Part shown: positions 34,172 through 52,620 of the stretch, piece after piece
Numbering within the stretch: the stretch's first letter is position 1
Layout: each line of letters begins with the position of its first letter
Source: Brucella pseudogrignonensis
GTDB lineage: Bacteria > Pseudomonadota > Alphaproteobacteria > Rhizobiales > Rhizobiaceae
Reading direction: 5' to 3'
DNA length: 64,000 nucleotides
Assembly (NCBI RefSeq): GCF_002252525.1
Contig: NZ_NNRM01000006.1
Location: 1 to 64,000 of the forward strand
The notes under the pieces: generated by a model
What the model was told of the DNA's origin: nothing
Seen by the model: the letters and a program-made list of their open reading frames with translations, nothing else
The model's database searches: none
Made by a program: the position numbers and the translations under genes

Positions 34172-35383
34172 TCATTTAACTTTGATGCCGCAATAAATTG
34201 TGACGGGCAGTGCCTGACGCCATGCATCAAAGGAGCCAAGCGCCCCTGCTTGCGCAACCTGCAGCCTTGTTAGCTCGCCGCCATGCTGCTTACGCCAGTT
34301 GAAAAGCTGCATTTCGCTTTGCAATGTGACGGCATTAGCAACCAAGCGCCCTCCGGGCTTTAGGGCTTTCCAGCAAGCTTCGATCACGCCCGCATCTGTA
34401 ACACCACCACCAATGAAAATCGCATCCGGTGCTTCGAGGCCACTCAACGCTTCAGGCGCTTCGCCTTTCACAAGCTGCAGACCGGGCACGCCCAGAGAAC
34501 GCGCGTTGCGCTCAATGATAGCTTGCCGCGTTTCATCAGCTTCGATTGCGATAGCCCGACAAGAAGGATGAACACGCATCCATTCAATGCCAATCGAGCC
34601 ACAACCAGCACCTACATCCCATAAAAGCTCATGCGGCAGCGGCTGCAACCGTGACAGTGTCACTGCGCGTATATCGCGCTTTGTCAGCTGCCCGTCATTT
34701 TCAAAAGCATGATCTGGCAATCCGCTGACAGGCGAAAAAACAACCGCATCTGGCGCCGCGATGCATTCAATTGCTAAAACATTGAGATCGGCACAGTTTT
34801 CATGTGACCAGCCATCAGCACTGCCAATGATAGATTTTTCCTTTGTTCCGCCGAGATGCTCAAGTACTGTCAGACGGCTTTGGTCAAAGCCTTTGGCCTT
34901 TAGAAGTGCTGCAGCTTTCGCAGGCGTCGTACCATCATTACTCAATACGAGGATCTTCTCGCCCGGCAGAATATGCGGTGCCAGCAATTCAAACGGACGA
35001 CCATGCACGCTGACTATGCGTACTTCTTGCAGAGGCCACGCCATACGGCTTGCGGCCAGCGACAATGACGATGGAAACGGGATGATATGCATGTCCTGTG
35101 TCGAAAAATAACGGCTCAGCGATGCGCCCATGCCAAAGAACATTGGATCACCGCTTGCCAGCACCACAACCTGCCTGCCGCGTTGGGCTTCAATCATTGG
35201 AAATGCATTATCAAACGGTGACGGCCATGAAATCTGCTCGGCTTTGATGCCGTGATCAAGAAAGACTAGATGCCGCTTGCCGCCGAAAATAACATCAGCA
35301 CGGTCGAGCGCGTCACGGGCGCTCTTTCCAAGACCCGCCAGCCCCTCCTCACCAATACCGATAATCGTCAGCCAGCAGCCCAT
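34172..35383 (-). CDS. cobL: Precorrin-6Y C5,15-methyltransferase (decarboxylating)
   Basis: A 403-residue bifunctional enzyme that methylates C5 and C15 of precorrin-6B and decarboxylates the C12 acetate, giving precorrin-8. The N-terminal CbiE-type domain (WLTIIGIGEEGLAGLGKSAR; VVVLASGDPMFFGMGASL) is followed by a CbiT-type Rossmann methyltransferase (DVGAGCGSIGIEWMRVHPSCRAIAIEADETR; IFIGGGVTDAGVIEACWKALKPGGRLVANAV). The ATG at 35383 is chosen because AAGGAG lies 8 nt upstream; the ATG at 35389 is too close to it. It is divergent from cobG over 73 nt. Confidence 0.95.
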   Translation of the reverse strand: MGCWLTIIGIGEEGLAGLGKSARDALDRADVIFGGKRHLVFLDHGIKAEQISWPSPFDNAFPMIEAQRGRQVVVLASGDPMFFGMGASLSRYFSTQDMHIIPFPSSLSLAASRMAWPLQEVRIVSVHGRPFELLAPHILPGEKILVLSNDGTTPAKAAALLKAKGFDQSRLTVLEHLGGTKEKSIIGSADGWSHENCADLNVLAIECIAAPDAVVFSPVSGLPDHAFENDGQLTKRDIRAVTLSRLQPLPHELLWDVGAGCGSIGIEWMRVHPSCRAIAIEADETRQAIIERNARSLGVPGLQLVKGEAPEALSGLEAPDAIFIGGGVTDAGVIEACWKALKPGGRLVANAVTLQSEMQLFNWRKQHGGELTRLQVAQAGALGSFDAWRQALPVTIYCGIKVK

Positions 35384-35456
35384 AAGCATTGCTCCTTTTC
35401 TTTGTTCGTATGGCGGTGCAGTAGCAAGTGCAAGCGCGAAGGCGTATAAGGCCATT

Positions 35457-36743
35457 ATGTTGAGCCAGCAAAATAGTCAGACCATTGCTATCAGACCCGA
35501 CCGGCGTAGTGCCTGTCCGGGACTCTCGCGCATGGTGATGAGCAAGGATGGCGCAATCGCCCGCATCAAGCTCCGGCTCGGAATGCTCAGCGCGGCACAG
35601 GCTCAAGCCATCGCAGATATCGCCGAACGATTTGAAACGGGCGCAATTGAATTGTCGATTCGCTCCAATATTCAGCTTCGCGGCATTCATCCCGACGTCT
35701 GGCCGAATGTAATTAGCGCACTTTATGAGGCCGGACTTGGTGCAGAAAACGCGGCGGCTGATGATGTTCGTAATGTCATGGTAAGCCCCACTGCTGGTAT
35801 TGACCCCAACCAAATCAGTGATGTGACCGGGTTAGCGGCTAAGCTGCTTTCCGTTTTGCAGGACAACGAAACTTATCACGCGCTGTCGCCCAAATTCTCG
35901 CTCCAGATCGATGGTGGCGAAGATTGTGCTATGGTTTCTCATCCCGGCGACATCTGGCTTTCAGCAATTGAAGGTGGCAAGGCCTATGCTTTTGGACTGG
36001 CTTCCTCGCCTGACAAACAGGCGCTTGGCACAATTTCAAACGAACACGCCCTGCCTTTTATAGAGGCTCTGCTACAGCATTTCCTTGGCGCGAGCCAAAA
36101 AGGCATTGCCCGCATGAAGCACCTCTTCGAGGTGATGCCGGTCGCAGAGTTTCTGCAAACACTTCCATTCGCATTTGATGCATCAGCAAGCTGGCAGCGC
36201 AAAGCACCCATCGCTCACGCGCATCTTGGCTTACATCGCCAGCTCGACGGCAACTTCTATGTCGGTGCCATGCCGCTGCTTGGTCGCCTGACACCGCAGC
36301 AACTGCGTGGACTTACAAAGCTTGCAAACGAAGAACTGCATCTCACCCCATGGCAAGGCATTCTCATCCCACATATTGCGGAAGCTGAAGGCAAGAGCAT
36401 CATCAACCAGCTAGATGCCCTTGGCTTCTGCACCGATCCTACCTCGCCTGCCGCCCGTCTTCGGGCCTGTTCCGGTTCCAAAGGCTGCGCCTCTGCTCTC
36501 GCAGATACACAGGCAGACAGTGAAAAGCTTGCGCGTAAGCTACGCAGCGACACCGCACAGATTCACATCACGGGCTGCGCCAAATCCTGCGCCGCACTTT
36601 CTCCCTTGCCACACACGCTTCTCGCCCGCTCCCCAATGCATTACGACCTATTTTTGCAAGACAAAGCTGGACCAGCACGCTTCGGACGGCTATTGGCGTC
36701 AAACATCACCATTGATGAGGCAGCAAAGCTGCTGAACAAATAG
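35457..36743 (+). CDS. cobG: Precorrin-3B synthase (oxygen-dependent)
   Basis: A 428-residue iron-sulfur, non-haem-iron protein of the sulfite/nitrite-reductase fold. It hydroxylates precorrin-3A at C20 with O2 and forms the gamma-lactone, preparing ring contraction. Two ferredoxin-like half-domains are seen (IELSIRSNIQLRGIHPDVW; GMLSAAQAQAIADIAERF). The 4Fe-4S ligands lie in RACSGSKGCASALADT and HITGCAKSCAALSP. Its presence marks the aerobic pathway. AAGG lies 5 nt before the ATG. It leads the cobG-cobH-cobI-cobJ unit. Confidence 0.94.
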   Translation: MLSQQNSQTIAIRPDRRSACPGLSRMVMSKDGAIARIKLRLGMLSAAQAQAIADIAERFETGAIELSIRSNIQLRGIHPDVWPNVISALYEAGLGAENAAADDVRNVMVSPTAGIDPNQISDVTGLAAKLLSVLQDNETYHALSPKFSLQIDGGEDCAMVSHPGDIWLSAIEGGKAYAFGLASSPDKQALGTISNEHALPFIEALLQHFLGASQKGIARMKHLFEVMPVAEFLQTLPFAFDASASWQRKAPIAHAHLGLHRQLDGNFYVGAMPLLGRLTPQQLRGLTKLANEELHLTPWQGILIPHIAEAEGKSIINQLDALGFCTDPTSPAARLRACSGSKGCASALADTQADSEKLARKLRSDTAQIHITGCAKSCAALSPLPHTLLARSPMHYDLFLQDKAGPARFGRLLASNITIDEAAKLLNK

Positions 36744-36757
36744 CAAAAGCGGACGCC

Positions 36758-37384
36758 ATGACAGATTACATCCGCGACGGGCAGGCCATTTATGACCGCT
36801 CCTTCGCCATCATCCGCGCCGAAGCCGATCTGAGCCGCATACCTGCGGATCTCGAAAAGCTCGCCGTGCGCGTGGCTCACGCATCTGGCATGGTCGATAT
36901 CGTTGAAGACATCGTCTTCTCAGATGGCGCAGGACAGGCCGGACGTGATGCTTTGCTCAAAGGAGCACCAATCCTCTGCGATGCGCGTATGGTTGCAGAA
37001 GGCATTACCCGTTCGCGACTGCCAGCCAATAACAATGTTATCTGCACACTGAACGATCCATCGGTTCCGGATTTGGCGAAAAAGATCGGCAATACACGCT
37101 CTGCCGCAGCCCTCGACCTTTGGCTTCCACACCTTGAAGGCAGCATCGTTGCTATCGGTAACGCGCCAACCGCCCTCTTCCGCCTGTTTGAAATGCTTGA
37201 CAATGGCGCGCCCAAACCTGCCCTTATCATTGGTATGCCGGTCGGCTTTGTGGGTGCTGCCGAATCCAAGGACGAGCTAGCTGAGAACAGCCGTGGTGTC
37301 CCTTTCGTCATTGTGCGCGGCCGTCGTGGCGGTAGCGCTATGACCGCAGCTGCCGTTAATGCACTTGCTTCGGAGCGCGAATAA
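36758..37384 (+). CDS. cobH: Precorrin-8X methylmutase
   Basis: Moves the C11 methyl group of precorrin-8 to C12 to give hydrogenobyrinic acid. The 208-residue protein has the catalytic His in [19 protein letters not shown], and the family elements [45 protein letters not shown] and [14 protein letters not shown]. Its stop overlaps the cobI start by one nt (TAATG). Confidence 0.97.
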
Positions 37385-38118
37385 TGGCCCTCAAAGGCAA
37401 GCTCTATGGTCTGGGTGTAGGCCCCGGCGATCCGGAACTCATCACACTCAAAGCTCTTCGACTGCTCAAATCAGCTCCTGTGGTCGCCTACCACGCAGCC
37501 AAGGGCAAAAAGGGCAATGCACTTACTATTGTCGAAACCTACCTGTCTTCAGAACAGACTTTGGTTCCGCTCATCTATCCGGTGACAACGGAAAAACTGC
37601 CCGCACATATGGATTATGAGCAGATCGTCAGCGATTTCTATGCCGAGATCACCACGACGATTGCATGCCATCTTGATGCAGGCCGCGACGTGGCCGTGAT
37701 CGCGGAAGGCGATCCATTCTTCTATGGCTCGTTCATGTATATCCATGACCGACTGGCCGAAAAATACGAAACGGAAGTCGTGCCTGGCGTTTGTTCTGTT
37801 CTGGGCGCTGCTGCCGTGCTTGGCGCACCCTTGGTCTACCGCAACCAGACCCTGTCGATCCTTTCGGGCGTCATGAGCGCAGAAGAACTCAAAACACGTC
37901 TCGCTGCTACTGAGGCCGCAGCCATCATGAAACTCGGGAAAAATCTCGACAAGGTGCGCGGTGTGCTGACCGAGCTTGGGCTGATGGATCGTGCGCTCTA
38001 TATCGAGCGTGCAACCATGCAAAACCAGCGTATTGCGCCATTGACCGAGGTAAGTGGTAGCGATTGCCCTTATTTCTCGATCATTCTCGTTCCGGGCAGC
38101 AAATGGAACGGCGTATGA
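37384..38118 (+). CDS. cobI: Precorrin-2 C20-methyltransferase
   Basis: Methylates precorrin-2 at C20 with SAM to yield precorrin-3A. The 244-residue class III methyltransferase starts with [20 protein letters not shown] and has [22 protein letters not shown] and [19 protein letters not shown]. It overlaps cobH by one nt and cobJ by four, so it is tightly coupled inside the operon. Confidence 0.96.
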
Positions 38119-39800
38119 AGCCTGCAATTCTGATCTTGAGTGAAGCTGCAATTTCCACCGCGCGGAAAGTGCAATCATCACTTGGAAATGCGGAAGTGCT
38201 GGGACTGGAAAACCGCGTTCAAAGCGCCGACAAAAGCTTTGCTCATTTTGGCGACGCTATACGCGCACTTTATGAAGAAGGCCGACCTGTGATCGCCTTG
38301 TGCGCTTCAGGCATCATCATCCGCGCCCTTGCACCCCTTCTGCAAAACAAGCGCATCGAACCGCCAGTTCTATCCGTTGCAGAAGATGGCAGCGCCGTCG
38401 TGCCATTGCTTGGCGGTCTGTCGGGTGTCAACGACCTGGCGCGGACAATAGCTCATGCATTGGAAGTCGCGCCCGCGATCACCACGACTGGCGAGTTGCG
38501 CTTTGGCATCAACCTGCTTCATCCTCCGGCAGAACTGAAACTCGCCAATCAGGACGACGCCAAGACTTTCATGTCCGACCTGCTGGCAGGTCAAACATTA
38601 CTAATCAATGGTAATTCTCGCTGGCTCACGGCATCAAAGCTGCCGCTTGCCGACGATGGGAAGCTCACAATCAGCATCACGCCCGAAACCCGCACGCCAC
38701 AGGCAAATGAGCTGATCTATCATCCGCGAACAATTGCCATCGCTATCGAAAAGCCGACTGAAGAACTGACAAGCCTCATCGGGAAAGCCTTTGACGATAC
38801 GGGCCTGTCTATAGACTCACTTGCTTTGCTTCTCGCTCATGAGAAAGATTGCGCATCACCGCATATCCATCGGGCAGCAAAAGTACTGAAAGCGCCATTG
38901 CGCTTTGTTGCAGGTAATGCCGATCTTTCAGCCGCCTCGGTCGAAAACCCTGTTCGACACATAGCGACTGAAAACCTAAAGCTGGCTGTTGCATCAGCAC
39001 CTGCCGATGTTCTTTTTATCGGTCGCAAGCGCGGCAAGCTCACGGTTATTGGACTTGGCCCCGGTGCCCGTGATCTGATGACCCCAGCCGTGCAGCGTGA
39101 TCTGGAACAGGCCGAAGACGTACTCGGCTATGAAACCTATGTTCGCATGGCAGGACCCTTCCGCGACGATCAGATCATTCACATGACCGACAATCGCGAA
39201 GAAATGCAGCGCGCACGCCATGCGTTTGAACTTGCAGCTTCAGGCCGCGATGTCGTGATGGTGTCGTCCGGCGATCCCGGCGTATTTGCAATGGCTGCAG
39301 CGGTTGTTGAGGCACTGCATGAATCATCTGATGTGGCGTGGCACGGCGTTGAACTGGTTATCCAGCCCGGAATTTCGGCAGCGATGGCAGCGGCGTCCCG
39401 GATCGGTGCGCCGCTTGGGCACGATTTCTGCATCATCTCGCTTTCGGACAATCTCAAGCCCTGGGATGTAATCGAGAAGCGTCTCGCACTGGCAGCTCAA
39501 GCCGATCTCGCCATGGCTTTCTATAATCCGATTTCCAAAGCCCGCCCACATCAGCTTGGTCGTGCGCTGGAAATCCTCCGGCAGTATCGCCATGCTGAAA
39601 CGCCGGTCGTGCTTGGTCGCGATATTGGCAGGCCTGCGGAAACAACTCGCGTTGTTTCGCTCGGGCAACTCACACCTGACGATGTCGACATGCGAACTGT
39701 GGTGATTGTCGGCTCATCGCACACTGCCCGCTTTCCACGCGCGGAAGGCGGAGAGTGGGTTTACACGCCGCGCTGGTATGGCCAAAAGCCGCACAAATGA
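38115..39800 (+). CDS. cobJ: CbiG-CobJ fusion: cobalamin protein CbiG / precorrin-3B C17-methyltransferase
   Basis: A 561-residue fusion. The N-terminal 310 residues resemble the whole of CbiG: an N-part ([21 protein letters not shown]...[21 protein letters not shown]), a middle part ([17 protein letters not shown]) and a CbiG_C-like part ([20 protein letters not shown]...[24 protein letters not shown]). The C-terminal 250 residues are a class III methyltransferase ([68 protein letters not shown]) matching CobJ/CbiH, which methylates C17 and contracts the ring. CbiG opens the delta-lactone and removes the extruded two-carbon unit in the anaerobic pathway. Its fusion here fits the absence of CobF. 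The start overlaps cobI by ATGA. Confidence 0.92.
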
Positions 39801-39805
39801 AAAAC

Positions 39806-41333: not shown

Positions 41334-41867
41334 TCAGAGTTCCAGCGTATGATAGCGGCGATTGAGATAAATCAGCGCTTCTTCGTCTGCATTCGAACGC
41401 AAGCCAACGACCTCGCCAAACAGTACATGATGCGTGGAATGCTCCTGCACACTTGTCACACGACAATCAAAAGCCGCCAGCGCGCCTTTGAGTACAGGTG
41501 CACCCGTATCGATTATGTCCCATTGTGCCAGCTCGAAACGTTCGTCTTGCGTAAGCCCTATGCGCCCTGAAAACGCATCGGCAAGCTGCTGATGTGAGCC
41601 TGCCAGCGTATTAACCGCAAACACGCCGTTCTTGATGAAAAGCAGGTTCTCTTCGTGCATTTTCTGCAGGCATATCAGCAGAGTTGGCGGATTATCCGAA
41701 ACTGAACAGGCCGCAGTTAAAGTAAGTCCGCGCCTTCCGGCAGCACCTGCGGTGGTAACAACCTGCACCGAACCTGCATAATGACTCATCGCATCGCGAT
41801 AAGTCTTCGGCTCGAGCGATACAGTATTTGAGGTAGTGTTTTTATCCGTTTGCACGTCAGCAAGCAT
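41334..41867 (-). CDS. cobR: Flavin reductase-like protein, probable cob(II)yrinate a,c-diamide reductase
   Basis: A 177-residue FMN-binding split-barrel protein of the flavin reductase family (AMSHYAGSVQVVTTAGAAGRRGLTLTAACSVSDNPPTLLICLQK; FAVNTLAGSHQQLADAFSG; HHVLFGEVVGLR). CobR, first characterised in Brucella melitensis, is a corrin reductase of exactly this family encoded among the cob genes. It reduces Co(II) to Co(I) before adenosylation by CobO. The position here in the cob region of a Brucella-like genome makes that the best reading. A general flavin reductase partner of a monooxygenase is the alternative, but none is adjacent. Confidence 0.8.
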   Translation of the reverse strand: MLADVQTDKNTTSNTVSLEPKTYRDAMSHYAGSVQVVTTAGAAGRRGLTLTAACSVSDNPPTLLICLQKMHEENLLFIKNGVFAVNTLAGSHQQLADAFSGRIGLTQDERFELAQWDIIDTGAPVLKGALAAFDCRVTSVQEHSTHHVLFGEVVGLRSNADEEALIYLNRRYHTLEL

Positions 41868-41975: not shown

Positions 41976-43151
41976 ATGAAATGTTTGAAGAAGATAAATC
42001 GCGTGATCAAGCCAGAGCAATTACCGGATAGACATGAAGCGGTTTTCCGCCCGGAATTGCGCGTTCTCAACCGGACGAAACTCTTCGCCCTAGCGCTATC
42101 GGCTTTCACAATGCTTTGCTTTCCAGCATCAGCGCAGGAAAATGCGACTGAAATCCGCATTGGAATGGCAGCACCTTTGAGTGGCGGCTTTGCCCCGCTT
42201 GGAAACCAGCTGATCGAAGGCGCCCGCGTGGCGGCCAGTGCCAAGAATGCACAGCTCGTCGTTGCAGATGATCGCTGTGATGCAGAAGGTGGCAAATCCG
42301 CTGCAGAAACCTTTATCAAAGAGAACGTCCAGATCGTAACCGGCTTTCTCTGTTCGGAAGCGTTGGAAGCAGCACTTCCCGTTTTGAGTCAGCGCAACAT
42401 CCCCGTCATCGCCTCAGGCGTCAGCGAACAAACCCTTACAGAAAAGCGTGCAGCAACGCCTTTTTCGGTTTTCCGCATTACGACGGGGCTGGAGAAGGAA
42501 ACGCGTGCTACGGGTAGCTTTTTGGCAAGCCTATGGCGCTCGCAGCCCTTCGCGGTCATAGACGATGGTACGATTGAAGGTCGCGAACGTGCTGGACAGG
42601 TTTTGGCTCACCTGAAGGACCAGCAGCTTCAGCCTGTTTTCACGGATACATATCGCCCCGGCCTCGAAAACCAGAATGCGCTTGTTGCGCGCCTGCGTCG
42701 TGCAGGAGCAACGCATGTTTATGTCGGCGGGGAACGCGACGACATTGCAGCTATTGGCACAAGTGCCGTGACACTTAAGTATCCGCTGGTTATCGCGGGC
42801 GGCAGCGTCCTCAATGCAGCGCCGGGTGCTCAACCACTGAGCACTGAAACCCTGATGATTGCACCTCTGAAGCCGCAGGATCTTTCGACAGCTAAAACGG
42901 CGGTCGATGCCATCAGTCAGGCAGGCAAACTGCCGGAAGCCTATTCCGTCACTGGTTTTGCCAGCATTGAACTCGCGGCTTCCGCGATCAGCAAAGCTGC
43001 GGAACAAAAGCAGCCGCTTATTGATATTTTGCGCGACAGCTCATTTGAAACCGCGCTTGGCACAATCAAATTCGATGGCAACGGTATGCGCAGCGACAAT
43101 CCAAATCGCCTGCAGCGCTATGATGGAACGCATTTTATAACAGCTGACTGA
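41976..43151 (+). CDS. Branched-chain-amino-acid-type periplasmic binding protein, orphan
   Basis: About 391 residues of a type I periplasmic binding protein (Peripla_BP_6). After a hydrophobic signal (TKLFALALSAFTMLCFPASAQ) come EIRIGMAAPLSGGFAPLGNQLIEGARVAAS, VVADDRCDAEGGKSAAETFIKENVQIVTGFLCSEALEAA and THVYVGGERDDIAAIGTSAV. No permease or ATPase gene accompanies it. The start is uncertain: ATG at 41976 leaves a long N-terminal region before the signal, and GTG or TTG codons nearer to it (for example 42003) are possible. It is divergent from cobR and overlaps the end of cobD by 17 nt on the other strand. Confidence 0.8.
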   Translation: MKCLKKINRVIKPEQLPDRHEAVFRPELRVLNRTKLFALALSAFTMLCFPASAQENATEIRIGMAAPLSGGFAPLGNQLIEGARVAASAKNAQLVVADDRCDAEGGKSAAETFIKENVQIVTGFLCSEALEAALPVLSQRNIPVIASGVSEQTLTEKRAATPFSVFRITTGLEKETRATGSFLASLWRSQPFAVIDDGTIEGRERAGQVLAHLKDQQLQPVFTDTYRPGLENQNALVARLRRAGATHVYVGGERDDIAAIGTSAVTLKYPLVIAGGSVLNAAPGAQPLSTETLMIAPLKPQDLSTAKTAVDAISQAGKLPEAYSVTGFASIELAASAISKAAEQKQPLIDILRDSSFETALGTIKFDGNGMRSDNPNRLQRYDGTHFITAD

Positions 43152-44124
43152 TAAGCCCGATCAGGCTTGCAGCGATAATAATCCCGGTCATAACGCTCAT
43201 ACTCGACCAGAAAAGCGAAAGCGCAGCATCAATATCGTCTGCATCAGCTTCCCGCTTACCCTCACCATAAAACAGCGGTGCTTCGACCTTTTCCGATCCA
43301 TATTGGCGCGGTCCGGCAAGTGCCAGCTCAAGCGCACCTGCAAAGGCCGATTCCGGCCATCCAGCATTGGGCGAACGGTGCAGCCGCGCATCGCGCCACA
43401 TGACGGATAGTGTTCTTTTCCCGGCTTTTTTATCGACCGTAAACGCAGCAGCTATTGCAGTCAGCAATCCGGTCAATCGTGCGGGAATATAGTTTGCAAC
43501 ATCATCAAGACGGGCAGCGAAGCGCCCGAAATGACGATAGCGGTCATTGAGATGACCGATCATCGAGTCTGCCGTGTTGATGAGTTTATACGCAAACAGC
43601 CCCGGCAAGCCGGCGACGAGAAACCAGAAAGCAGGAGCAACAATGCCATCCGACGCATTCTCGGAAAGGCTTTCGATCGCTGCGCGACTGATACCGCCTT
43701 CATCGAGCTGATCCGGGTTACGTCCGACAATCATCGAAACCGCTTTGCGACCACCTTCAATACCGTCTTCACGCAACCCAGAGGCCACCGCCCGCACATG
43801 ATCGGCAAGGCTTTTCTGGGCCAGAAACACTGCGACGATGGTGATTTCAACCAGCGCGCCCGCTGTCCCCAGATAAGGCAGCAAATAGTCTAGCGCCAAC
43901 CCCACCACAACACATGAAATTACCAGTCCGATTATCAACCACATGCCATTGCTGCGCAGTGCATTGACAGAAAGACTGTGATCATTGAGACGTTTTTCAC
44001 CCCAGCTGATTGCCTTGCCAAACAGAACCACCGGATGCGGAACTTTCTGCCAGAGCTGTGGCGGATCACCCATCACCCGGTCCAGAACAAGCGCTAAAGC
44101 AAGAATAATCAGCTTTATTTCCAT
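43135..44124 (-). CDS. cobD: Adenosylcobinamide-phosphate synthase (CbiB/CobD)
   Basis: A 329-residue polytopic membrane protein that joins adenosylcobyric acid to (R)-1-amino-2-propanol phosphate. Family elements are DRVMGDPPQLWQKVPHPVVLFGKAISWGEKRLN, the segment SRAAIESLSENASDGIVAPAFWFLVAGLPGLFAYKLINTADSMIGH and SPNAGWPESAFAGALEL. It is the last gene of cobA-cobB-cobC-cobD, 22 nt after cobC, and ends overlapping the binding-protein gene tail to tail. Confidence 0.95.
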   Translation of the reverse strand: MEIKLIILALALVLDRVMGDPPQLWQKVPHPVVLFGKAISWGEKRLNDHSLSVNALRSNGMWLIIGLVISCVVVGLALDYLLPYLGTAGALVEITIVAVFLAQKSLADHVRAVASGLREDGIEGGRKAVSMIVGRNPDQLDEGGISRAAIESLSENASDGIVAPAFWFLVAGLPGLFAYKLINTADSMIGHLNDRYRHFGRFAARLDDVANYIPARLTGLLTAIAAAFTVDKKAGKRTLSVMWRDARLHRSPNAGWPESAFAGALELALAGPRQYGSEKVEAPLFYGEGKREADADDIDAALSLFWSSMSVMTGIIIAASLIGLISQLL

Positions 44125-44146: not shown

Positions 44147-45154
44147 TCACTTTTTCAAGCGGAGAATATCCCGCAATGCATGTTCAAATCGCATAAGGCC
44201 CGCCTGATCAGGCGCGAGTCCGATGCGCAGCCAGCTTGGTGCATAGGCAAACTTTCGGACAAGAATATGCCGCTCACAAAGTGCATCGTAAATTGCACGA
44301 GCATTTTCATGTTCAACGAGCGAAAACAGAGCTGTGCCACCTACTTCCAAGAGCTGACAATGTGCGAGCGTCGCGGCAAGTTCTGCCCGTCTTGTATCAA
44401 TGCGTCCGTGAAAGGCCTCAAGTTCAACACCACTTTCGAAAGCATGGAGTGCAATCGCAAGCGTTGGTCCCGCCACAGCCCATGGACCGAGCCTGTCTGC
44501 AACGCGCTTCACAAGCTCATCATTCGCAAGCAGGAACCCAAGCCGGACACCTGCAAGGCCAAAGAACTTACCGAAGGATTTCAACACGACCAGCGGCGCA
44601 TTCGCAGCATGTCTTGCAATGCTCACCTCCGGATGCGGATCGGCAAAAGCCTCATCCACAACCAGAAAACCGCCACGCTCGCCCAACTTTCGCGCAAGCC
44701 CCAGCAAATCAGGCCGCGCAATAATCCGGCCATCCGGGTTGTTCGGATTGACGATTGTGACCACCAGCGCATCCTCTGGGATGTCGTCGAGCGTCGCACA
44801 TTCGATCACATTCCAGTTCGCCGCTTCAAAAGCTGCCGCATGTTCCTGATAGGTCGGGCCCAAAATGGCGACCGTCGCAGGTTCAAGCAATGTCGGAATA
44901 AGCTGAATAAGCGCCTGCGTTCCCGGACTGGCAACGATTGGCGCATTCTTACCGGCTTCGTAATAGGAACGCGCCGCAGTCAGAACCCGCAACGATAGCC
45001 CCTCATCCGGCAAACGGTTCCACAAGGGCGCAGCCAGTTCCGGCAGAGGAAAATGTTCGGGATTGATACCCGTTGAAAGATCAAGCCAGTCGTCGACCTT
45101 ACCGCCAAAGCGCGCAATAGCCTTATCCAGCGCTCCGCCATGCTCAATAGTCAT
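44147..45154 (-). CDS. cobC: Threonine-phosphate decarboxylase (CobC/CobD type)
   Basis: A 335-residue PLP enzyme that makes (R)-1-amino-2-propanol phosphate for the nucleotide loop linker. It shows the aminotransferase-fold elements DLSTGINPEHFPLP near the N-terminus, ASPGTQALIQLIP, VTIVNPNNPDGRI, VVDEAFADPHPE and the PLP lysine in VLKSFGKFFGLAGVRLGF. The start lies 2 nt after the cobB stop, with GGAGAG inside the end of cobB. Confidence 0.94.
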   Translation of the reverse strand: MTIEHGGALDKAIARFGGKVDDWLDLSTGINPEHFPLPELAAPLWNRLPDEGLSLRVLTAARSYYEAGKNAPIVASPGTQALIQLIPTLLEPATVAILGPTYQEHAAAFEAANWNVIECATLDDIPEDALVVTIVNPNNPDGRIIARPDLLGLARKLGERGGFLVVDEAFADPHPEVSIARHAANAPLVVLKSFGKFFGLAGVRLGFLLANDELVKRVADRLGPWAVAGPTLAIALHAFESGVELEAFHGRIDTRRAELAATLAHCQLLEVGGTALFSLVEHENARAIYDALCERHILVRKFAYAPSWLRIGLAPDQAGLMRFEHALRDILRLKK

Positions 45155-45156
45155 GT

Positions 45157-46464
45157 TCAGGCATTCTCTCCGGAAAAATCAATCACATGCGTGAAGGAGC
45201 CAGCAACTGAACCAACGCGAAGTCCCGCCTCTCCCAGTTCCTCGCCCAACGCATCGCGGACGCGGAACAACCGTTCGGCATCCCCTTCGCGCACAATACT
45301 GGCATAGTGAAACTCATGAGCCGAAAGCGGCAATGGCCATGGCGAACCCGACAAAGGTTCCAGTTTGCGATAACCAAGGTGCATTTTGCGTTTGGCAAAA
45401 CTTGTGTCAAGCGGAAGCAGCCCAAGCATGGGATGCTTCACGCAAGACGAATCTTCCAGCGTCTCACCCAGCACCATATAGCCGCCACACTCGCCGTAAA
45501 TGCGCACACCACGATCCGCAGCGCGTCTCATGCCCTGCAGGAAACACTTCGCTTGGCTCAATTTTCCGGCATGAAGCTCAGGATAGCCTCCCGGCAGATA
45601 AATGGCGTCAGCACTTTCATCGGGCGCTTCGTCAACAAGCGGTGAAAAGAATGAAAGCTCAGCACCACGCCTGCGCCAACCTGCAAGTAGATGCGCATAG
45701 GCAAAGGCAAAGGCGTCGTCTCGCGCTACTGCAATGCGGTTTCCAAGCGGCGTGAGGCGAGGAACATTCGCCATAGCCTCATGATGCTTTGGCCGCGACC
45801 AGATATGCTCTAATGCGCTTAAATCAATACGCGCATCAACCACATCCGCAGCGTGCTCAAGGAAACGCTCCAGATCGGCATGTTCCGCTGCTTGAACAAG
45901 CCCAAGATGTCTGGAGGGCAGAACCAGCGCTTCATCTCGCGGAATTACGCCCAGAACGGCAATACCGAGCGGTTTGATCGCTTCGCGCAGCATGGCCTCA
46001 TGTCTGCCGCTGCCAACCCGGTTAAGAATAACCCCGGCAATCAGCACATCTTTGCGAAACTGGCTGAAACCCGAAATGAGTGCAGCAATGGAATGGGATT
46101 GGCGGGCGCAATCGACCACTAGAACCACTGGCAGATCAAGAGTTCGCGCCAAATCTGCCGACGAACCCTTTCCATCGAGCGCACCGTCGAAAAGCCCCAT
46201 CATACCTTCAACAACCAGCAGCTTATTGCCCTCAGTCATGCGGGATGAAATGGCACTGATAAGCTCTGGCCGCATGGCCCATGGATCAAGATTGAAGCAA
46301 TCCACACCGCTCGCAGACTTATGGTAGGCAGGATCGATGTAATCAGGGCCAGCTTTCGCAGGTGCAAGCGCCTCGCCACGACGCTTTAGAGCGCGCAGCA
46401 GCCCAAGCGTCAAAGTGGTTTTGCCTGAACCGGAAGCCGGCGCTGCAATCATGAAACCCTTCAT
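45157..46464 (-). CDS. cobB: Hydrogenobyrinate/cobyrinate a,c-diamide synthase
   Basis: A 435-residue glutamine amidotransferase that amidates the a and c side chains, here before cobalt insertion. An N-terminal ATP-binding domain (GFMIAAPASGSGKTTLTLGLLRALKRRGE; GPDYIDPAYHKSASGVDCFNLDPWAM; VVEGMMGLFDG) is followed by a GATase domain with GGYPELHA and the catalytic Cys in IYGECGGYMVLGE; the late motif HEFHYASI is present. The start overlaps cobA by ATGA. Confidence 0.95.
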   Translation of the reverse strand: MKGFMIAAPASGSGKTTLTLGLLRALKRRGEALAPAKAGPDYIDPAYHKSASGVDCFNLDPWAMRPELISAISSRMTEGNKLLVVEGMMGLFDGALDGKGSSADLARTLDLPVVLVVDCARQSHSIAALISGFSQFRKDVLIAGVILNRVGSGRHEAMLREAIKPLGIAVLGVIPRDEALVLPSRHLGLVQAAEHADLERFLEHAADVVDARIDLSALEHIWSRPKHHEAMANVPRLTPLGNRIAVARDDAFAFAYAHLLAGWRRRGAELSFFSPLVDEAPDESADAIYLPGGYPELHAGKLSQAKCFLQGMRRAADRGVRIYGECGGYMVLGETLEDSSCVKHPMLGLLPLDTSFAKRKMHLGYRKLEPLSGSPWPLPLSAHEFHYASIVREGDAERLFRVRDALGEELGEAGLRVGSVAGSFTHVIDFSGENA

Positions 46465-47336
46465 GCGCTCTTCTCTCTGCTAAGATGAAGCGGATCGCTT
46501 GTCAGTTTTCGACCCTGAGATGCACCGGCCCAGTCAAGCCCCGCACGCAGCTTCACAACCTCTCCCACAACCACGATTGCCGGCGGCTTGAGACCCGATG
46601 CTTCAACATCTGCAACCGCGCGTGACAATGTTGTCTCCAGAACCACCTGTTCAGGCAAGCTGGCATTGCAGACAAATGCGACCGGTTCATCTGGCGAACG
46701 TCCTGCTGTCATCAGACGCTCTGTAATGAGGTCGATATGCTTCATCGCCATATACATCACAATAACCGGAGAAGACTGGGCAATGCCCTCCCAATTAATA
46801 CGATCTGGCATCAGCCCTGTTGCATCGTGGCCCGTGAGGAATGTAACTGATTGGTTGATATCGCGATGCGTGGCCGCAATTCCTGCATAGGCAAGACCGC
46901 CGATACCCGCTGTAATGCCTGGCACAATGCGAAACGGCACGCCATGTTCAACAAGCGTCAGCGCTTCCTCGGCTCCGCGCCCAAAGACGAATGGATCACC
47001 ACCTTTCAGGCGCAGAACCTTCTTGCCTTCCTGAGCTAGCTCAACCAGTCGCAGCGAAATATCGCGCTGCTTTGGTGAAGGCTTGCCGCCTCGTTTGCCT
47101 GCGTATTCAACAATTGCGTCATCGCGCTTGAGTGAAAGACAGGCTTCATCAACCAGCGCATCATAGACAATAACATCCGCGTCTCGCAGCGCGTTCACCG
47201 CGTGCAATGTGAGAAGGCCCGGATCACCCGGACCGGCACCAACAAGCCAGACATGCCCGGGCTGTATCGCGGGCAAGCTGACTTTGCTCTTCGCAACAAT
47301 ACATTCCGGCGCATGTTCAGGCTTATTCATCGTCAT
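46461..47336 (-). CDS. cobA: Uroporphyrinogen-III C-methyltransferase (SUMT)
   Basis: A 291-residue class III methyltransferase that makes precorrin-2 from uroporphyrinogen III. It has VWLVGAGPGDPGLLTLHAVNAL, LKGGDPFVFGRGAEEALTL, GITAGIGGLAYAGIAATHRD and PVIVMYMAMKH. No siroheme-synthase domains are fused to it, so it serves B12 rather than siroheme, at least structurally. The start is one of two near ATGs (47336 or 47330) or a TTG at 47339. It leads cobA-cobB-cobC-cobD and is divergent from cbiD. Confidence 0.95.
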   Translation of the reverse strand: MTMNKPEHAPECIVAKSKVSLPAIQPGHVWLVGAGPGDPGLLTLHAVNALRDADVIVYDALVDEACLSLKRDDAIVEYAGKRGGKPSPKQRDISLRLVELAQEGKKVLRLKGGDPFVFGRGAEEALTLVEHGVPFRIVPGITAGIGGLAYAGIAATHRDINQSVTFLTGHDATGLMPDRINWEGIAQSSPVIVMYMAMKHIDLITERLMTAGRSPDEPVAFVCNASLPEQVVLETTLSRAVADVEASGLKPPAIVVVGEVVKLRAGLDWAGASQGRKLTSDPLHLSREKSA

Positions 47337-47351
47337 CAACCATAATTCTAT

Positions 47352-47429: not shown

Positions 47430-47462
47430 CGGCACAGCTATCAGATACATTATAAGGCGTCC

Positions 47463-48569
47463 ATGAACGATGAAACCGCCCCTACTAATAAACTACCAGA
47501 AAAAGCCGAACTGCGTCGCGGCTGGACGACGGGCGCCTGTGCCACAGCTGCCACCAAGGCAGCGCTGACTGCGCTTATTACCGGTGAATTCCCCGATCCG
47601 GTCGGCATCATCCTCCCCAAAGGTGAAGTTCCCTATTTCCAGCTTGAATATGAAGGGCTGGGTGAAGGCTATGCCATGGCGGGTATCATCAAGGATGCGG
47701 GTGACGATCCGGATGTCACGCACGGCGCAACAATCATCTCGACCGTTTTCCCTGCCCCTCCCGGCACAGGCATTGTGTTTCAGGCAGGCGAAGGCGTAGG
47801 CACCGTAACGCGACCCGGCTTGCAAATTCAGCCGGGCGAAGCGGCAATCAATCCAACTCCGCGCCGCATGATGACAGAGATCTGCGAACAGATATGTGCG
47901 GAATATGGTCTGCCTGCTGATCTGGTGATTACGATTTCCGTTCCGGGCGGCGAAGAAATTGCGCAGAAAACGTGGAACCCGCGCCTTGGTATCGTTGGCG
48001 GTATTTCCATCTTGGGTACGACAGGCGTTGTGCATCCATTTTCGTGTTCAGCATGGATCCATTCTATCCATCGCGGCATAGATGTAGCGCGTGCTGAAAA
48101 GCAAAAACATGTACTCGCTGCGACCGGCTCAACCTCTGAAGACGCAGCACAAGCACTTTATGATCTGCCGGATTTTGCAATTCTCGACATGGGTGATTTT
48201 GCCGGTGGCGTACTCAAATATCTGCGAGCGCATCCCATCGATAAACTTACCCTTGCAGGCGGATTCGCCAAGCTGACAAAACTTGCTCAGGGTGAGCTTG
48301 ATCTTCATTCTGCGCGTTCACAGGTCGATAAGAGCTTCCTCTGGACTATTGCCGAAAAGGCTGGCGCGCCAAGCGACATGAAGGACCGGATTCTTTTTGC
48401 GAACACTGCACTGGAAGTGCTTGAAATGACTCAAAGCGTTGACATCGACATGGCTACACCGATCGCTGAAAAAGCTAAGCAGGTGGCGCTCGAAACCCTG
48501 CGCGGCGCACCTGTTGAAGTCGAAATCATTGTGACGGATCGCAAAGGCAATATCCTTGCCTGCCTCTAA
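47463..48569 (+). CDS. cbiD: CbiD-type C1-methyltransferase (precorrin-5/cobalt-precorrin-5B)
   Basis: A 368-residue CbiD protein. Family elements are LRRGWTTGACATAATKAALTAL near the N-terminus, ATIISTVFPAPPGTGIVFQAGEGVGTVTRPGLQI, VTISVPGGEEIAQKTWNPRLGIVGGISILGTTGVVHPFS and AGGFAKLTKLAQGELDLHSARS. CbiD methylates C1 in the anaerobic pathway. In this aerobic-type cluster it probably replaces CobF, which is missing from the window. AAGG lies 6 nt before the ATG. It overlaps cobK by 14 nt. Confidence 0.94.
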   Translation: MNDETAPTNKLPEKAELRRGWTTGACATAATKAALTALITGEFPDPVGIILPKGEVPYFQLEYEGLGEGYAMAGIIKDAGDDPDVTHGATIISTVFPAPPGTGIVFQAGEGVGTVTRPGLQIQPGEAAINPTPRRMMTEICEQICAEYGLPADLVITISVPGGEEIAQKTWNPRLGIVGGISILGTTGVVHPFSCSAWIHSIHRGIDVARAEKQKHVLAATGSTSEDAAQALYDLPDFAILDMGDFAGGVLKYLRAHPIDKLTLAGGFAKLTKLAQGELDLHSARSQVDKSFLWTIAEKAGAPSDMKDRILFANTALEVLEMTQSVDIDMATPIAEKAKQVALETLRGAPVEVEIIVTDRKGNILACL

Positions 48570-49296
48570 AATACTCATTCTTGGCGGCACGGCTGAAGCA
48601 TCAAAGCTTGCTTCCTCACTGGAGGCCCTACCCGTCGAAGCTATCACCTCGCTTGCAGGCCGAACGGCCAACCCTGCTCCAATCAGCGGCAAGCTGCGCA
48701 TTGGCGGATTTGGCGGCGCAGAAGGTCTGACAGCTTATCTGACAACCGAGAAAATCAATCTTCTGATCGATGCGACACATCCCTATGCAACGCGCATTTC
48801 ACACAATGCTGTCGTGGCATCCGATATGGCAAATATTCCGCTACTCCGGCTTGAACGTCCAGCATGGGAAAAACAAAGCGGCGATAACTGGATTGAGGTC
48901 GAGAACGAAGCGCAGGCTGCGACCTTGATCCCCGCTGGTGAGCGTGTTCTGCTCGCACTGGGCCGCCAACATATCAAACCCTTTGCAGATCGTAGCGATG
49001 TTCACTTCATCATACGGATGATCGATCCGCCGGAGGTAACACTTCCACGCGATTGTGAAATCGTTCTGGCAAAACCCGGAAACTATGAATCTGAGAAGCA
49101 ATTCCTGAGCGGGCGAAAGATCGGCCTGATTGTCAGCCGCAATTCCGGCGGCAGCATTTCCTATGCGAAAATCCGGGCAGCGCGCGATCTCGCCATACCT
49201 GTCATGATGATCGCACGCCCACCCGTTGAAGCCAAAACTGTTGTCGCCACCGTGGATGAAGCAGTTGAATTTGCGCGTTCAGCTTTACGATTTTGA
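48556..49296 (+). CDS. cobK: Precorrin-6A reductase
   Basis: A 246-residue NADPH-dependent reductase that converts precorrin-6A to 6B. The N-terminus KILILGGTAEASKLASSL is the dinucleotide-binding turn. LLIDATHPYATRISHNAV and LLRLERPAWEKQ are typical family segments, and LIVSRNSGGSISYAKIRAARDLAIPVMMIARP closes the second domain. Translation starts at TTG with AAAGG upstream, overlapping the end of cbiD, so the two are coupled. It converges with cobM, overlapping by 12 nt. Confidence 0.93.
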   Translation: MPASKILILGGTAEASKLASSLEALPVEAITSLAGRTANPAPISGKLRIGGFGGAEGLTAYLTTEKINLLIDATHPYATRISHNAVVASDMANIPLLRLERPAWEKQSGDNWIEVENEAQAATLIPAGERVLLALGRQHIKPFADRSDVHFIIRMIDPPEVTLPRDCEIVLAKPGNYESEKQFLSGRKIGLIVSRNSGGSISYAKIRAARDLAIPVMMIARPPVEAKTVVATVDEAVEFARSALRF

Positions 49297-50043
49297 GCGC
49301 GCAACATGGCTATGCGCTTCATGATAAAGCGCTGAATCACGAAAGTTCTTCGGATCAAGACCACGCCCAACGAATATCATTGCCGTTCTTTTGACGCCAG
49401 AAAGCTCCACTTTCGCCACAATGTCAGACAGTTTTCCGCGCAGAATCTGCTCATCTGGCCACCCAATTCGGTATGCAACGACCACTGGACAGTCAGAACC
49501 GTATAGTGGCGTCAGCTCCGTTTCGATCTTCGCAAGGTTCCGGATCGATAGGTGAATGACCAAAGTCGCACCAGATTTACCCAGTGTGGCGAGATCCTCA
49601 CCTTCCGGCATCGCAGATGATTTTACCGAAGTCCGCGTCAGAATAATGCTCTGGTTAACTTCCGGAATTGTTAGTTCCTGTTTCATTGCAGCTGCAGCTG
49701 CTACAAAAGCCGGGACACCCGGCGTCACGTCATAAGGGATGCCGAGCGTATCAAGCCTGCGCATCTGTTCAGCCATCGCGCCATAAATCGATGGATCTCC
49801 TGAATGCACCCGTGCAACATCATGCCCTTTGGCATGAGCCGCCTCAATCGCCGCAATGATTTCATCAAGTGTCAGCGAGGAACTATCAATCAGCAGCGCA
49901 TTATCGGGTGCAGATGCAACAACTTCTTTTGGCACCAGCGATCCTGCATAAATGCAGACCTGACAGCTTTCGATCAGTCGCAAACCACGCACGGTGATGA
50001 GGTCGGCGGCACCGGGACCGGCTCCAATGAAATGAACTGTCAC
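49285..50043 (-). CDS. cobM: Precorrin-4 C11-methyltransferase
   Basis: A 252-residue class III methyltransferase that methylates C11. It begins VHFIGAGPGAADLITVRGLRLI and has VARVHSGDPSIYGAMAEQMRRLD, VTPGVPAFVAAAAAMKQELTIPEVNQSIILTR and VIHLSIRNL. Start codon GTG, with GAGGAAG upstream. It stands alone on its strand, convergent with cobK. Confidence 0.95.
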   Translation of the reverse strand: MTVHFIGAGPGAADLITVRGLRLIESCQVCIYAGSLVPKEVVASAPDNALLIDSSSLTLDEIIAAIEAAHAKGHDVARVHSGDPSIYGAMAEQMRRLDTLGIPYDVTPGVPAFVAAAAAMKQELTIPEVNQSIILTRTSVKSSAMPEGEDLATLGKSGATLVIHLSIRNLAKIETELTPLYGSDCPVVVAYRIGWPDEQILRGKLSDIVAKVELSGVKRTAMIFVGRGLDPKNFRDSALYHEAHSHVARSKS

Positions 50044-50664: not shown

Positions 50665-50682
50665 ACGGACGGATTTATATTA

Positions 50683-50719
50683 TGTCAGCCACCCTGACAA
50701 GTTTGAATACGCTCGTATT
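50683..50719. promoter_or_regulatory. Candidate TetR operators between the regulator and MFS genes
   Basis: Two perfect inverted repeats lie close together: TGTCAGCCACCCTGACA (50683-50699, arms TGTCAG/CTGACA) and AATACGCTCGTATT (50706-50719, arms AATACG/CGTATT). The second can be extended by three pairs with one mismatch. Their position supports the MFS start at 50736 rather than farther upstream. Confidence 0.6.
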
Positions 50720-50735
50720 GAAAAGGTGTAATCCG

Positions 50736-52223
50736 ATGTTGCCGCAAAATCGCTGGCTCGTTCTCGCAATTGTTTCCAGCGCGTTGTTCCTGATCGTTGT
50801 GGATATGACAGTGCTTTACACAGCGCTGCCACGCCTCACCCATGATCTGGCGGCAAGTGCTTCCGAAAAGCTCTGGATCATGAATATCTACCCGCTGGTG
50901 GTGGCAGGCCTGCTGCCGGGCCTCGGCACGCTGGGTGACAAGCTCGGCCACAAGCGCATGTTCATGAATGGCCTGGTGGTGTTTGGCCTTGCTTCGCTGT
51001 GCGCAGCCTATTCACCAAACCCGGAAGTGTTGATCGCAGCCCGCGCATTTCTCGCCTGTGGCGCGGCGATGATGATGCCTGCTACGCTGTCGATCATTCG
51101 ACTGACCTTTACCGATGAAAAAGAACGCTCGCTTGCCATTGGCATCTGGGCGGCGATTGCTTCGGGTGGCGCTGCCATCGGCCCTGTCGCGGGCGGTGTA
51201 CTGCTCGAATATTTCTGGTGGGGCTCGGTGTTCCTCATCAACGTGCCTGTTGTTCTGGTGGCCCTGGCACTTTCAGCCTTCAACCTTGAAAACCGCCCCC
51301 TCGGCTCCCAGCGCAAATGGGATCTCGTCGGCTCGATCCAGATTATGATCGGCCTGATCGCGTTGACCTATGCCGTCAAGGAACTTGCCAAGCGCGATGC
51401 ATCGATGACTGTGTTTGCGAGTGCTCTGATTATCGGCCTCATCGCAACGACCATTTTCGTGCGCCGTCAGTTTTCAAGCAAAGAGCCGCTCATCGACTTC
51501 TCGCTGTTTAATAACAGACTGTTCTCAACGGGTGTGTTTGCGGCTCTCGTTGCGTCCGGTTCGATGACTGGCATGGAACTGGTGTTCAGCCAGCGTATGC
51601 AGCTGATCGAAGGCATGACGCCTTTGCAGGCTGGTCTGATGATCTTGCCTATTCCGCTTGCGGCCTTTGTAGCTGGACCGCTGGCTGGCATGATGTTGCC
51701 GCGCCTTGGCGCAGGCAAGGTGCTCTGGGCGTCGCTCGGCATCACCGCTCTCGGTGTGGTGATCTATATCCTGACCTATAAGCTCTCGACGCATTTCTAT
51801 CTGGCAGGGCTTGCTGTCCTCGGTTTTGGTGTTGGCTGTGCAATGACCGGCGCATCCTCGTCAATCATGGGCAATGCACCGGCCGAAAAGGCTGGCATGG
51901 CGGCATCTGTCGAGGAAGTTTCGTTTGAACTTGGCAATGCGCTGGGTGTGACGATCTTCGGAAGTATCCTGTCGGCATTCTATACCGCCAGCCTTATCCT
52001 GCCTGCAGGCTCAAGCATTCCATCTGTTGTCCGCGACAGCCTGGATGAAGCGCTTCTCGCTGCACAATCGATGCCGGAAGCGGATGCCTATGCTCTGACT
52101 ACCCTCGCATCGCAAGCATTCGAAAATGCCTATGTGGCTGTCATCGTTGCGACCGCTGCCCTGCTGCTCGTTGCGACTGTTGCAACCTACATCGTGCAAC
52201 GTCGCAAAGTGAAGATCGCGTAA
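50736..52223 (+). CDS. MFS efflux transporter, 14-helix DHA2 type (SmvA/QacA-like)
   Basis: A 495-residue major facilitator with about 14 membrane segments. Motifs of the DHA2 drug:H+ antiporters are present: VDMTVLYTALPRLTHDL in helix 1, GTLGDKLGHKRMFMNGL (motif A) and GPVAGGVLLEYFWWGSVFLINVP (motif C). Relatives export quaternary ammonium compounds, dyes and biguanides. The ATG at 50736 has AAGG upstream and places helix 1 at the usual distance; in-frame starts at 50682 or 50622 would run through the operator region. It ends one nt from cobE, tail to tail. Confidence 0.9.
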   Translation: MLPQNRWLVLAIVSSALFLIVVDMTVLYTALPRLTHDLAASASEKLWIMNIYPLVVAGLLPGLGTLGDKLGHKRMFMNGLVVFGLASLCAAYSPNPEVLIAARAFLACGAAMMMPATLSIIRLTFTDEKERSLAIGIWAAIASGGAAIGPVAGGVLLEYFWWGSVFLINVPVVLVALALSAFNLENRPLGSQRKWDLVGSIQIMIGLIALTYAVKELAKRDASMTVFASALIIGLIATTIFVRRQFSSKEPLIDFSLFNNRLFSTGVFAALVASGSMTGMELVFSQRMQLIEGMTPLQAGLMILPIPLAAFVAGPLAGMMLPRLGAGKVLWASLGITALGVVIYILTYKLSTHFYLAGLAVLGFGVGCAMTGASSSIMGNAPAEKAGMAASVEEVSFELGNALGVTIFGSILSAFYTASLILPAGSSIPSVVRDSLDEALLAAQSMPEADAYALTTLASQAFENAYVAVIVATAALLLVATVATYIVQRRKVKIA

Positions 52224-52224
52224 T

Positions 52225-52620
52225 TCATACGCTCCGTGTCACCGCAATCGCTGCGGTGGCACATTCACTGGTCGTTTTTCCGATCAGCAATTCTGCATCA
52301 TCTCCGGTCGCAGCAAGCGCTGCAGATTCTGCAACGCCATGGCATCCGACCATAGCGAAAACCACGTCCGACGGGTGCTTCAACTTTGGCGTTTCTTCTT
52401 CGAGCCGCTCGGCATCAAAGAAGAGCAGCTCGCTACCATAATGTTGAGCAAACTTGGCCCAGACCGGATCACCTTGCTTGGTGGAAATTGTTGCTATGAC
52501 AGAAGGTCGCTTCAAACCGGCTTTAAGCAAAACCTTGTCTGCCAATGAAACGAGTTCCTCGAGACTTACGCCTGACGAACTTCCCATCCCAAGCGCAGCC
52601 CGTTTTTCCTTAGACTGCAC
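52225..52620 (-). CDS. cobE: CobE (CbiG C-terminal-domain protein)
   Basis: A 131-residue CbiG_C-type protein. It begins RAALGMGSSSGVSLEELVSLADKVLLKAG, then IATISTKQGDPVWAKFAQHYGSELLFFDAERLEEETPKL and ends VGCHGVAESAALAATGDDAELLIGKTTSECATAAIAV. CobE is required in some aerobic B12 producers but has no firmly assigned reaction. A second CbiG_C-like segment is inside the CbiG-CobJ fusion. The GTG at 52620 is the likely start; it overlaps the end of the TerB-like gene by 11 nt. Confidence 0.85.
   Translation of the reverse strand: MQSKEKRAALGMGSSSGVSLEELVSLADKVLLKAGLKRPSVIATISTKQGDPVWAKFAQHYGSELLFFDAERLEEETPKLKHPSDVVFAMVGCHGVAESAALAATGDDAELLIGKTTSECATAAIAVTRSV

Follow-up and report, generated by a model that had tools for sequence, protein, structure and literature searches.

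A CobG-type cobalamin gene cluster of Brucella pseudogrignonensis with CbiD in the place of CobF

The cobalamin gene cluster

The window, as the whole stretch of DNA analysed here is called, comprises the first 64,000 nucleotides of a Brucella pseudogrignonensis contig (C49:1-64000 of genome G000; G, C, L and f numbers are our handles for genomes, contigs, named loci and families). The genome totals 5.53 Mb in 53 contigs and is rated 100% complete. NCBIfam and Pfam models delimited a B12 gene cluster at 34.2-63.4 kb of the window (Table 1), and our subject is two of its components: cbiD, which appears to occupy the place of the missing cobF, and a CbiG-like region fused to CobJ. With the exception of cobR, which was recognised by Pfam PF01613 and a match to PDB entries, one of which (4ira) we take to be a CobR, every named gene scored above the curated cut-off of one or more models. 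The open reading frame (ORF) of cobG overlaps cobL, so its true start probably lies downstream of 35277. A single cobalamin riboswitch was found in the cluster. The family models bore out an initial annotation of cobG, cobI, cobJ, cobM, cobK, cobL, cobH, cobB and cbiD, and also of cobR, as a cobR-like gene; cobN, placed by that annotation within 34172..52620, is indeed present but lies beyond this interval.

Table 1. Positions of cobalamin-related features in the window, with the model matches that support them
Feature	Position	Strand	Support
cobL (CbiE+CbiT fusion), precorrin-6Y C5,15-methyltransferase	34172..35455	-	TIGR02467 164.4 bits (cut-off 92.9), TIGR02469 121.6 (78.3)
cobG, precorrin-3B synthase	35277..36743	+	TIGR02435 402.4 bits (cut-off 234.8); adjoins cobH, cobI
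cobH, precorrin-8X methylmutase	36758..37384	+	NF006136 370 bits (cut-off 276)
cobI, precorrin-2 C20-methyltransferase	37384..38118	+	NF004647 417.9 bits (cut-off 271)
CbiG-like N-terminal region of CobJ fusion, residues 18-320 of the ORF; likely start ATG 38115	38115..39023	+	PF11760 82.9 bits (cut-off 25); PF01890 14.4 (cut-off 27)
Codon CTG, Leu119 of the 578-aa ORF, at the CbiG histidine site	38418..38420	+	alignment
cobJ domain, precorrin-3B C17-methyltransferase	39024..39800	+	TIGR01466 293 bits (cut-off 246.35)
cobR-like flavin reductase	41334..41867	-	PF01613 119.9 bits; 315.7 bits to PDB 3cb0/4ira
cobD/cbiB, adenosylcobinamide-phosphate synthase	43135..44124	-	TIGR00380 220.7 bits (cut-off 165.9)
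cobC, threonine-phosphate decarboxylase	44147..45154	-	TIGR01140 319.3 bits (cut-off 290.55)
cobB, a,c-diamide synthase	45157..46464	-	NF002204 501.1 bits (cut-off 254)
cobA, uroporphyrinogen-III methyltransferase	46461..47339	-	TIGR01469 281.6 bits (cut-off 185)
cbiD, predicted C1-methyltransferase in cobF's place	47463..48569	+	NF000849 510.8 bits (cut-off 348), TIGR00312 422.7 (200)
cobK, precorrin-6A reductase	48556..49296	+	TIGR00715 140.9 bits (cut-off 129.85)
cobM, precorrin-4 C11-methyltransferase	49285..50043	-	TIGR01465 314.8 bits (cut-off 259.65)
cobE, stand-alone CbiG_C protein	52225..52692	-	PF01890 87.9 bits (cut-off 27); PDB CobE 2w6l/2w6k
cobO, corrinoid adenosyltransferase	54525..55163	-	TIGR00708 234.8 bits (cut-off 167.75)
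cobN, late cobalt chelatase subunit	55264..59037	-	TIGR02257 1697.3 bits (cut-off 822.05)
cobW	59037..60089	-	TIGR02475 566 bits (cut-off 332.1)
cobP/cobU	60094..60627	-	NF004469 224.6 bits (cut-off 161)
cbtA, proposed cobalt transporter	60633..61358	-	TIGR02458 286.3 bits (cut-off 182.9)
Cobalamin riboswitch, upstream of the cbtA-cobP-cobW-cobN-cobO run	61683..61917	-	RF00174 99.1 bits
cobQ, cobyric acid synthase	61939..63390	-	NF001989 638.8 bits (cut-off 273)

The absence of cobF, initially reported for these 64 kb, holds for the whole genome at the cut-off of the CobF model. A search of all 5.53 Mb with TIGR02434 returned no CobF over the cut-off, and the best match (50.8 bits against 195.8) was cobI. 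The weak matches outside the cluster that were checked as possible hidden CobF proteins proved to be CysG (contig C8) and an aminotransferase (C49:246175). Among the hallmarks of a late-cobalt pathway, CobG (TIGR02435) and CobN (TIGR02257) were found in the genome and CobF was not. Neither CbiX nor CbiK, either of which would indicate early cobalt insertion as in the anaerobic route, gave any match in the genome search. The set in this genome therefore comprises CobG, CobN and CbiD but neither CobF nor a dedicated early cobalt chelatase.

CobF and CbiD across CobG genomes

To place this gene set in a wider context, models for CobG, CobF, CbiD and CbiG_N were run against 349 genomes of the phylum and gave matches over their cut-offs in 63, 50, 85 and 83 genomes, respectively. 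The CobG model also matches an apparent paralog at about 375-420 bits away from the cob genes, so CobG was counted only where a match scoring 150 bits or more was listed within 15 kb of a cobI-like match, which left at least 54 genomes. Matches of this size on genes away from cobI occur in G217, G289 and other f2 and f3 genomes, and are an annotation trap if they are paralogs. Among the matches listed, 35 of the genomes with CobG beside cobI have CobF only, 16 have CbiD only, three have both and none has neither; an overlap of three is the smallest possible (p = 5e-11, uncorrected for kinship). Of the fourteen genomes with listed CobG matches that the proximity rule excluded, ten have CobF, G004 has CbiD, G014 (173 bits) has both CbiD and CbiG_N, and neither CobF nor CbiD is present in G217 and G289. 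G063, in which the CobG match lies beside cobH, also stands outside the 54.

The two kinds of genome are spread over several families, with CbiD-only genomes in seven, CobF-only genomes in eight and both kinds in three, including that of the window. Within the latter, G265 and G331, from two other genera, have CbiD without CobF, and CobF is present in 12 of the genomes sampled. In G265, cbiD is located between cobM and cobA; in the CobF genome G194, only some 77 bp separate the matches to these two genes. That every one of the at least 54 genomes with CobG beside cobI has CobF or CbiD upholds the initial proposal that CbiD stands in for CobF, and the conclusion that CbiD takes the place of CobF in the CobG-type pathway is well supported by gene content. 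Three genomes of family f38 (G058, G130 and G146), in which CobF is encoded either on a different contig or a long way from the cob genes, have both proteins, as if caught mid-exchange; the remainder of this family has CobF only (eight genomes) or CbiD only (one).

A second set was obtained by scanning named genomes with the CbiD alignment and taking the best 80 of 581 loci that encode a relative. This set may overlap the 349 genomes, and it includes some metagenome-assembled genomes whose completeness is not shown. Among these best 80 loci, 37 have CobG in their flanks (28 from Actinomycetes, seven from alphaproteobacteria, one from Thermoleophilia and one unassigned), with CobG adjoining cobH within 3 kb in all 37; the CobG matches of L214 and L216 are cut by a contig edge. 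When the genomes of these 37 loci were searched, CobF was detected in ten and not in the other 27.

Candidates for the deacetylating step

According to passages of PMC7242693, methylation of C1 by CobF is accompanied by release of the extruded C20 unit, and in anaerobes CbiG breaks a delta-lactone with release of acetaldehyde, after which CbiD methylates C1. Two proteins of the window other than CbiD itself could be considered for removal of the two-carbon unit. The first is CobE, since the recognisable CbiG_C domain of this genome resides in the separate gene cobE, which is homologous to the C-terminal part of CbiG. CobE would then be the deacetylating partner of CbiD, and perhaps of CobF too, and a CbiG_C match is indeed present in 72 of 73 surveyed genomes, alongside CobF as well as CbiD. 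However, CobE thereby also accompanies CobF, a protein itself described as deacetylating, and it is not among the twelve enzymes named for the in vitro synthesis of hydrogenobyrinic acid in the relevant part of PMC5282855. In addition, G095 (contig C3), the only one of the 73 genomes with no CbiG_C or CobE match, has CobG and CobF, together with a CbiG_N-CobJ fusion that has a diverged motif. We therefore regard CobE as a rather unlikely source of this activity. The narrower idea that CobE compensates specifically for the use of CbiD was rejected, CobF genomes having CobE too, and inspection of 68 aligned CbiG_C regions by eye revealed nothing that separates the CobF group from the CbiD group.

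The second candidate is the CbiG-like region of CobJ, which was initially described as complete and assigned the deacetylating half of the CobF reaction. Completeness does not hold: CbiG_N is clearly matched, but the C-terminal part falls below its cut-off (Table 1) and the signature histidine is replaced by leucine. CbiG_N regions were fetched and aligned from 57 of the 83 genomes that have one. The histidine of the PLLGGH/VLSGH motif, which is contained in the published CbiG signature LLSGH.GGAN (in the passage of PMC5481537 that lists it), is conserved in 39 of 39 copies from genomes without CobG by the proximity rule. At the same site, all 18 CobG-associated copies, including that of the window (Leu119), have leucine, irrespective of whether the genome has CbiD (six), CobF (nine) or both (three), and the window thus departs from the CbiG signature. 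This lost histidine may be catalytic. The named loci, again from the best 80 of 581, provided 25 further histidine copies, none with CobG in the flanks, and four further leucine copies. Of the latter, L186 and L244 have CobG, while L168 and L169 are the nearest kin of the window and CobG was not seen in their flank.

The distribution of the region also disagrees with an obligatory role beside CbiD. Among the genomes with CobG beside cobI, CbiG_N is present in six of the 16 with CbiD only, nine of the 35 with CobF only (Fisher p = 0.51) and all three with both, compared with 60 of the 66 genomes that have CbiD but, under the proximity rule, no CobG (p = 2e-5 against 6/16). In the ten CbiD-only genomes without CbiG_N, only 11-56 bp separate the matches to cobI and cobJ, which leaves no space for a hidden CbiG-like region. 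Likewise, 24 of the 27 named CobG and CbiD genomes without CobF, drawn from the best 80 of 581 loci, have no CbiG_N genome-wide, the other three being those of L186, L244 and L238. As far as gene content can tell, this shows that the CbiG-like region is dispensable in CobG and CbiD genomes, and an obligatory partnership with CbiD was rejected on distribution and the lost histidine together.

The initially proposed division of labour, in which metal-free precorrin-5 loses its two-carbon fragment through the CbiG-like part of CobJ and is then methylated at C1 by CbiD, would reproduce the order of events in anaerobes. Both proteins are encoded in this genome, and the region retains ten of the 13 positions that are at least 97% conserved in the 39 non-CobG copies, so it may still bind the ring. 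Against this stand its absence from most CobG and CbiD genomes, its presence in a quarter or so of CobF-only genomes, the uniform loss of the histidine and the score of the C-terminal domain, which is below the cut-off. Moreover, once CobG and CobJ have acted, the ring-A acetate is free and the delta-lactone that CbiG opens is absent from precorrin-5. With no lactone to open, and given the survey, CbiD rather than the CbiG-like region is the consistent replacement for CobF. The region is probably not part of that replacement, and a deacetylating role for it is quite unlikely.

Relationships of CbiD and origin of the cluster

Of 53 positions that 45 canonical CbiDs conserve, the window CbiD retains 50; its KDAGDDPDVTH motif fits the signature KD[AG]GDDXD[AV]TH given in a passage of PMC5481537, and it matches no CobF model. 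A tree was constructed from 82 CbiDs, with the partial proteins of G291, G266 and G198 excluded and, as in the conservation counts, G004 and G063 classed with the CobG genomes. One clade (support 98) unites 21 CbiDs of CobG genomes with 14 of CbiX-type alphaproteobacteria and those of G158 and G162, and the presence or absence of CobG requires at least five changes on the tree. The window CbiD itself pairs with its counterpart from the CbiX-type genome G262 (support 90). The proximity of CbiDs from CbiX-bearing genomes to CbiDs from genomes lacking CbiX suggests that CbiD tolerates rings with and without cobalt, or adapts easily. A search for CbiD residues that mark CobG genomes yielded just three weak positions.

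Comparison of neighbouring genes suggested that the cluster has two parts. The block cobL-cobG-cobH-cobI-cbiG.cobJ best matches G008 and genomes of families f38 and f60 (CobI, 368 bits to G008 and 191 to G262), and the block cobB-cobA-cbiD-cobM best matches G262 and G047 among the loci compared (CobA, 390 bits to G262 versus 219 to G265; CbiD, 418 versus 338). Because these two blocks of window positions 34172-50043 have different nearest loci, the cluster looks chimeric, as if assembled from two sources, with the second block nearest to CbiX-type alphaproteobacteria.

These CbiX-type relatives form an opposite hybrid. Fifteen alphaproteobacteria (G047, G103, G262, G016, G099, G135, G163, G205, G226, G232, G235, G247, G280, G291 and G321) all have CbiX, in 14 cases a few kb from cob genes, together with CobN over the cut-off. 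They make up 15 of the 17 alphaproteobacterial CbiD genomes without CobG by the proximity rule, the other two being G004 and G063. CobZ was considered for these genomes and was over the cut-off in just two of the 15. In the CobG and CbiD genome G008, a CobZ-model match at C14:46134-47384 lies just over the cut-off (384 versus 372.55 bits). The cobN frames at G163:C49:18901-22605 and G205:C15:53899-57591 each contain one in-frame TGA. Relatives of CbiD with 50-59% identity are also encoded on large plasmids of Azospirillum, Rhizobium sp. Q54, Neorhizobium, Methylorubrum extorquens CM4, Acetobacter and others.

The B12 cluster of the window is interrupted by genes to which no B12 role is known to belong: a weak alpha/beta hydrolase match (40438-41466), a branched-chain amino acid type binding protein (41850-43151) and a TetR/MFS pair (50095-52223).

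Discussion

Taken together, these data make it probable that the window encodes a B12 pathway of the oxygen-dependent, cobalt-late type, with CbiD as the replacement for CobF and with no part for the CbiG-like region in deacetylation. CobG and CobJ would contract the ring of a metal-free precorrin and CobM would methylate C11, after which CbiD would methylate precorrin-5, or deacetylated precorrin-5, at C1 and so provide precorrin-6A for CobK; CobN would insert cobalt later. It follows from the gene set that CbiD should act on a metal-free substrate. Loss of the C1 acetyl unit would most likely be catalysed by CbiD itself or follow from the reaction that CbiD carries out, and CbiD is the preferred agent over CobE or another hydrolase.

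Several observations weigh against this interpretation. A CobF too diverged for TIGR02434 may have escaped the model search. G217 and G289 combine a CobG-model match over the cut-off, unlinked to cobI, with neither CobF nor CbiD; the match is taken as a paralog. Four of the 16 CbiD-only genomes (G046, G249, G322 and G324) have a short CbiX elsewhere. In the account of PMC7242693, as far as it covers this step, CbiD of the anaerobic route does not deacetylate and CbiG does, so a new activity of CbiD has to be assumed. The 18 leucine copies of the CbiG-like region form one clade (support 97) and therefore reflect one old, retained change, not many. CobG-associated copies show strong mutual conservation and retain the majority of the positions conserved in CbiG. 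The domain is therefore unlikely to be in decay and probably has another function, perhaps that of an altered hydrolase. Two CobF genomes retain a residual CbiG_C match inside the fusion (27.1 bits in G286 and 22.7 bits in G310). Finally, the siroheme synthase CysG is encoded on another contig (C8:354381-355808, 555 bits) and is accepted as an early chelatase in the anaerobic rule set out in PMC4403557, which leaves a small doubt over the timing of cobalt insertion.

If cobalt did enter early, for example through CysG, CbiD would work on a cobalt-containing ring, as its grouping with the CbiDs of CbiX-bearing alphaproteobacteria would permit. We consider this highly improbable, given the lack of CbiX and CbiK in the genome and the presence of CobG, CobN and a cobR-like gene, and CysG may serve siroheme alone. 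A broken pathway with CbiD as a leftover can practically be dismissed: nothing further than the missing CobF was found in its favour, the cob genes are open frames, the two nearest named loci have a cbiD 91% and 81% identical to that of the window, and each of the at least 54 genomes with CobG beside cobI has CobF, CbiD or both.

A more ambitious form of the CbiD replacement can be offered tentatively. CbiD may be a full precorrin-6A synthase in CobG-type organisms, both deacetylating metal-free precorrin-5 and methylating its C1, and the conserved, histidine-less extension of CobJ may have taken on a CobG-specific task, for example in dealing with the lactone of precorrin-3B as the ring contracts, regardless of whether the next enzyme is CobF or CbiD. 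We see this combination as possible rather than probable.

The pathway shares with the oxygen-dependent route of Pseudomonas denitrificans and Rhodobacter capsulatus the oxygen-using ring contraction and CobI, CobJ, CobM, CobK, CobL, CobH, CobB, CobN and CobE, and differs in having CbiD instead of CobF and an extra CbiG-like region on CobJ. Table 5 of PMC11596459 lists P. denitrificans without CobF and Pseudomonas putida with it, in conflict with the P. denitrificans cobF that appears in PMC5282855. With the anaerobic CbiG/CbiD pair, the window shares a homologous CbiD that keeps its signature and a CobJ extension homologous to CbiG. In contrast to the anaerobic pathway, it has no CbiX or CbiK, has lost the CbiG histidine and has a CbiG C-terminal domain below the cut-off in the fusion. 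A statement in PMC6461909 holds that the two pathways are indistinguishable by annotated gene content and that chelatases are not exclusive.

A CobG and CbiD gene set is ordinary, common and in print since 2015, when Table 2 of PMC4403557 listed 'CbiL + CobG + CbiGF + (CobF or CbiD) + CbiECA + CobNST ...' as a B12-producing set. The window agrees with this set in combining CobG with CbiD as the alternative to CobF. The same rule requires CbiG, whereas most surveyed CobG and CbiD genomes without CobF have no CbiG_N. A passage of PMC3621897 suggests the CbiD encoded on plasmid pCMU01 of Methylobacterium extorquens CM4 as a stand-in for CobF and cites a Streptomyces CbiD likewise; unlike the genome studied here, strain CM4 also has a chromosomal cobF, and the role of CbiD there is stated as one to be investigated. 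In text searches of an open-access library, which lacks most subscription journals, we found no assay of CbiD on a metal-free precorrin and no mention of the His-to-Leu change in the CbiG-like region.

Removal of the extruded two-carbon unit is a chemical dividing line between the two B12 routes. As every one of the at least 54 genomes fills the C1-methylation slot with CobF or CbiD, the substrate range of CbiD is directly testable. The His-to-Leu switch provides a simple marker that separates the CobG-type extension of CobJ from true CbiG, and the survey suggests that pathway rules requiring CbiG would miss most CobG and CbiD producers.

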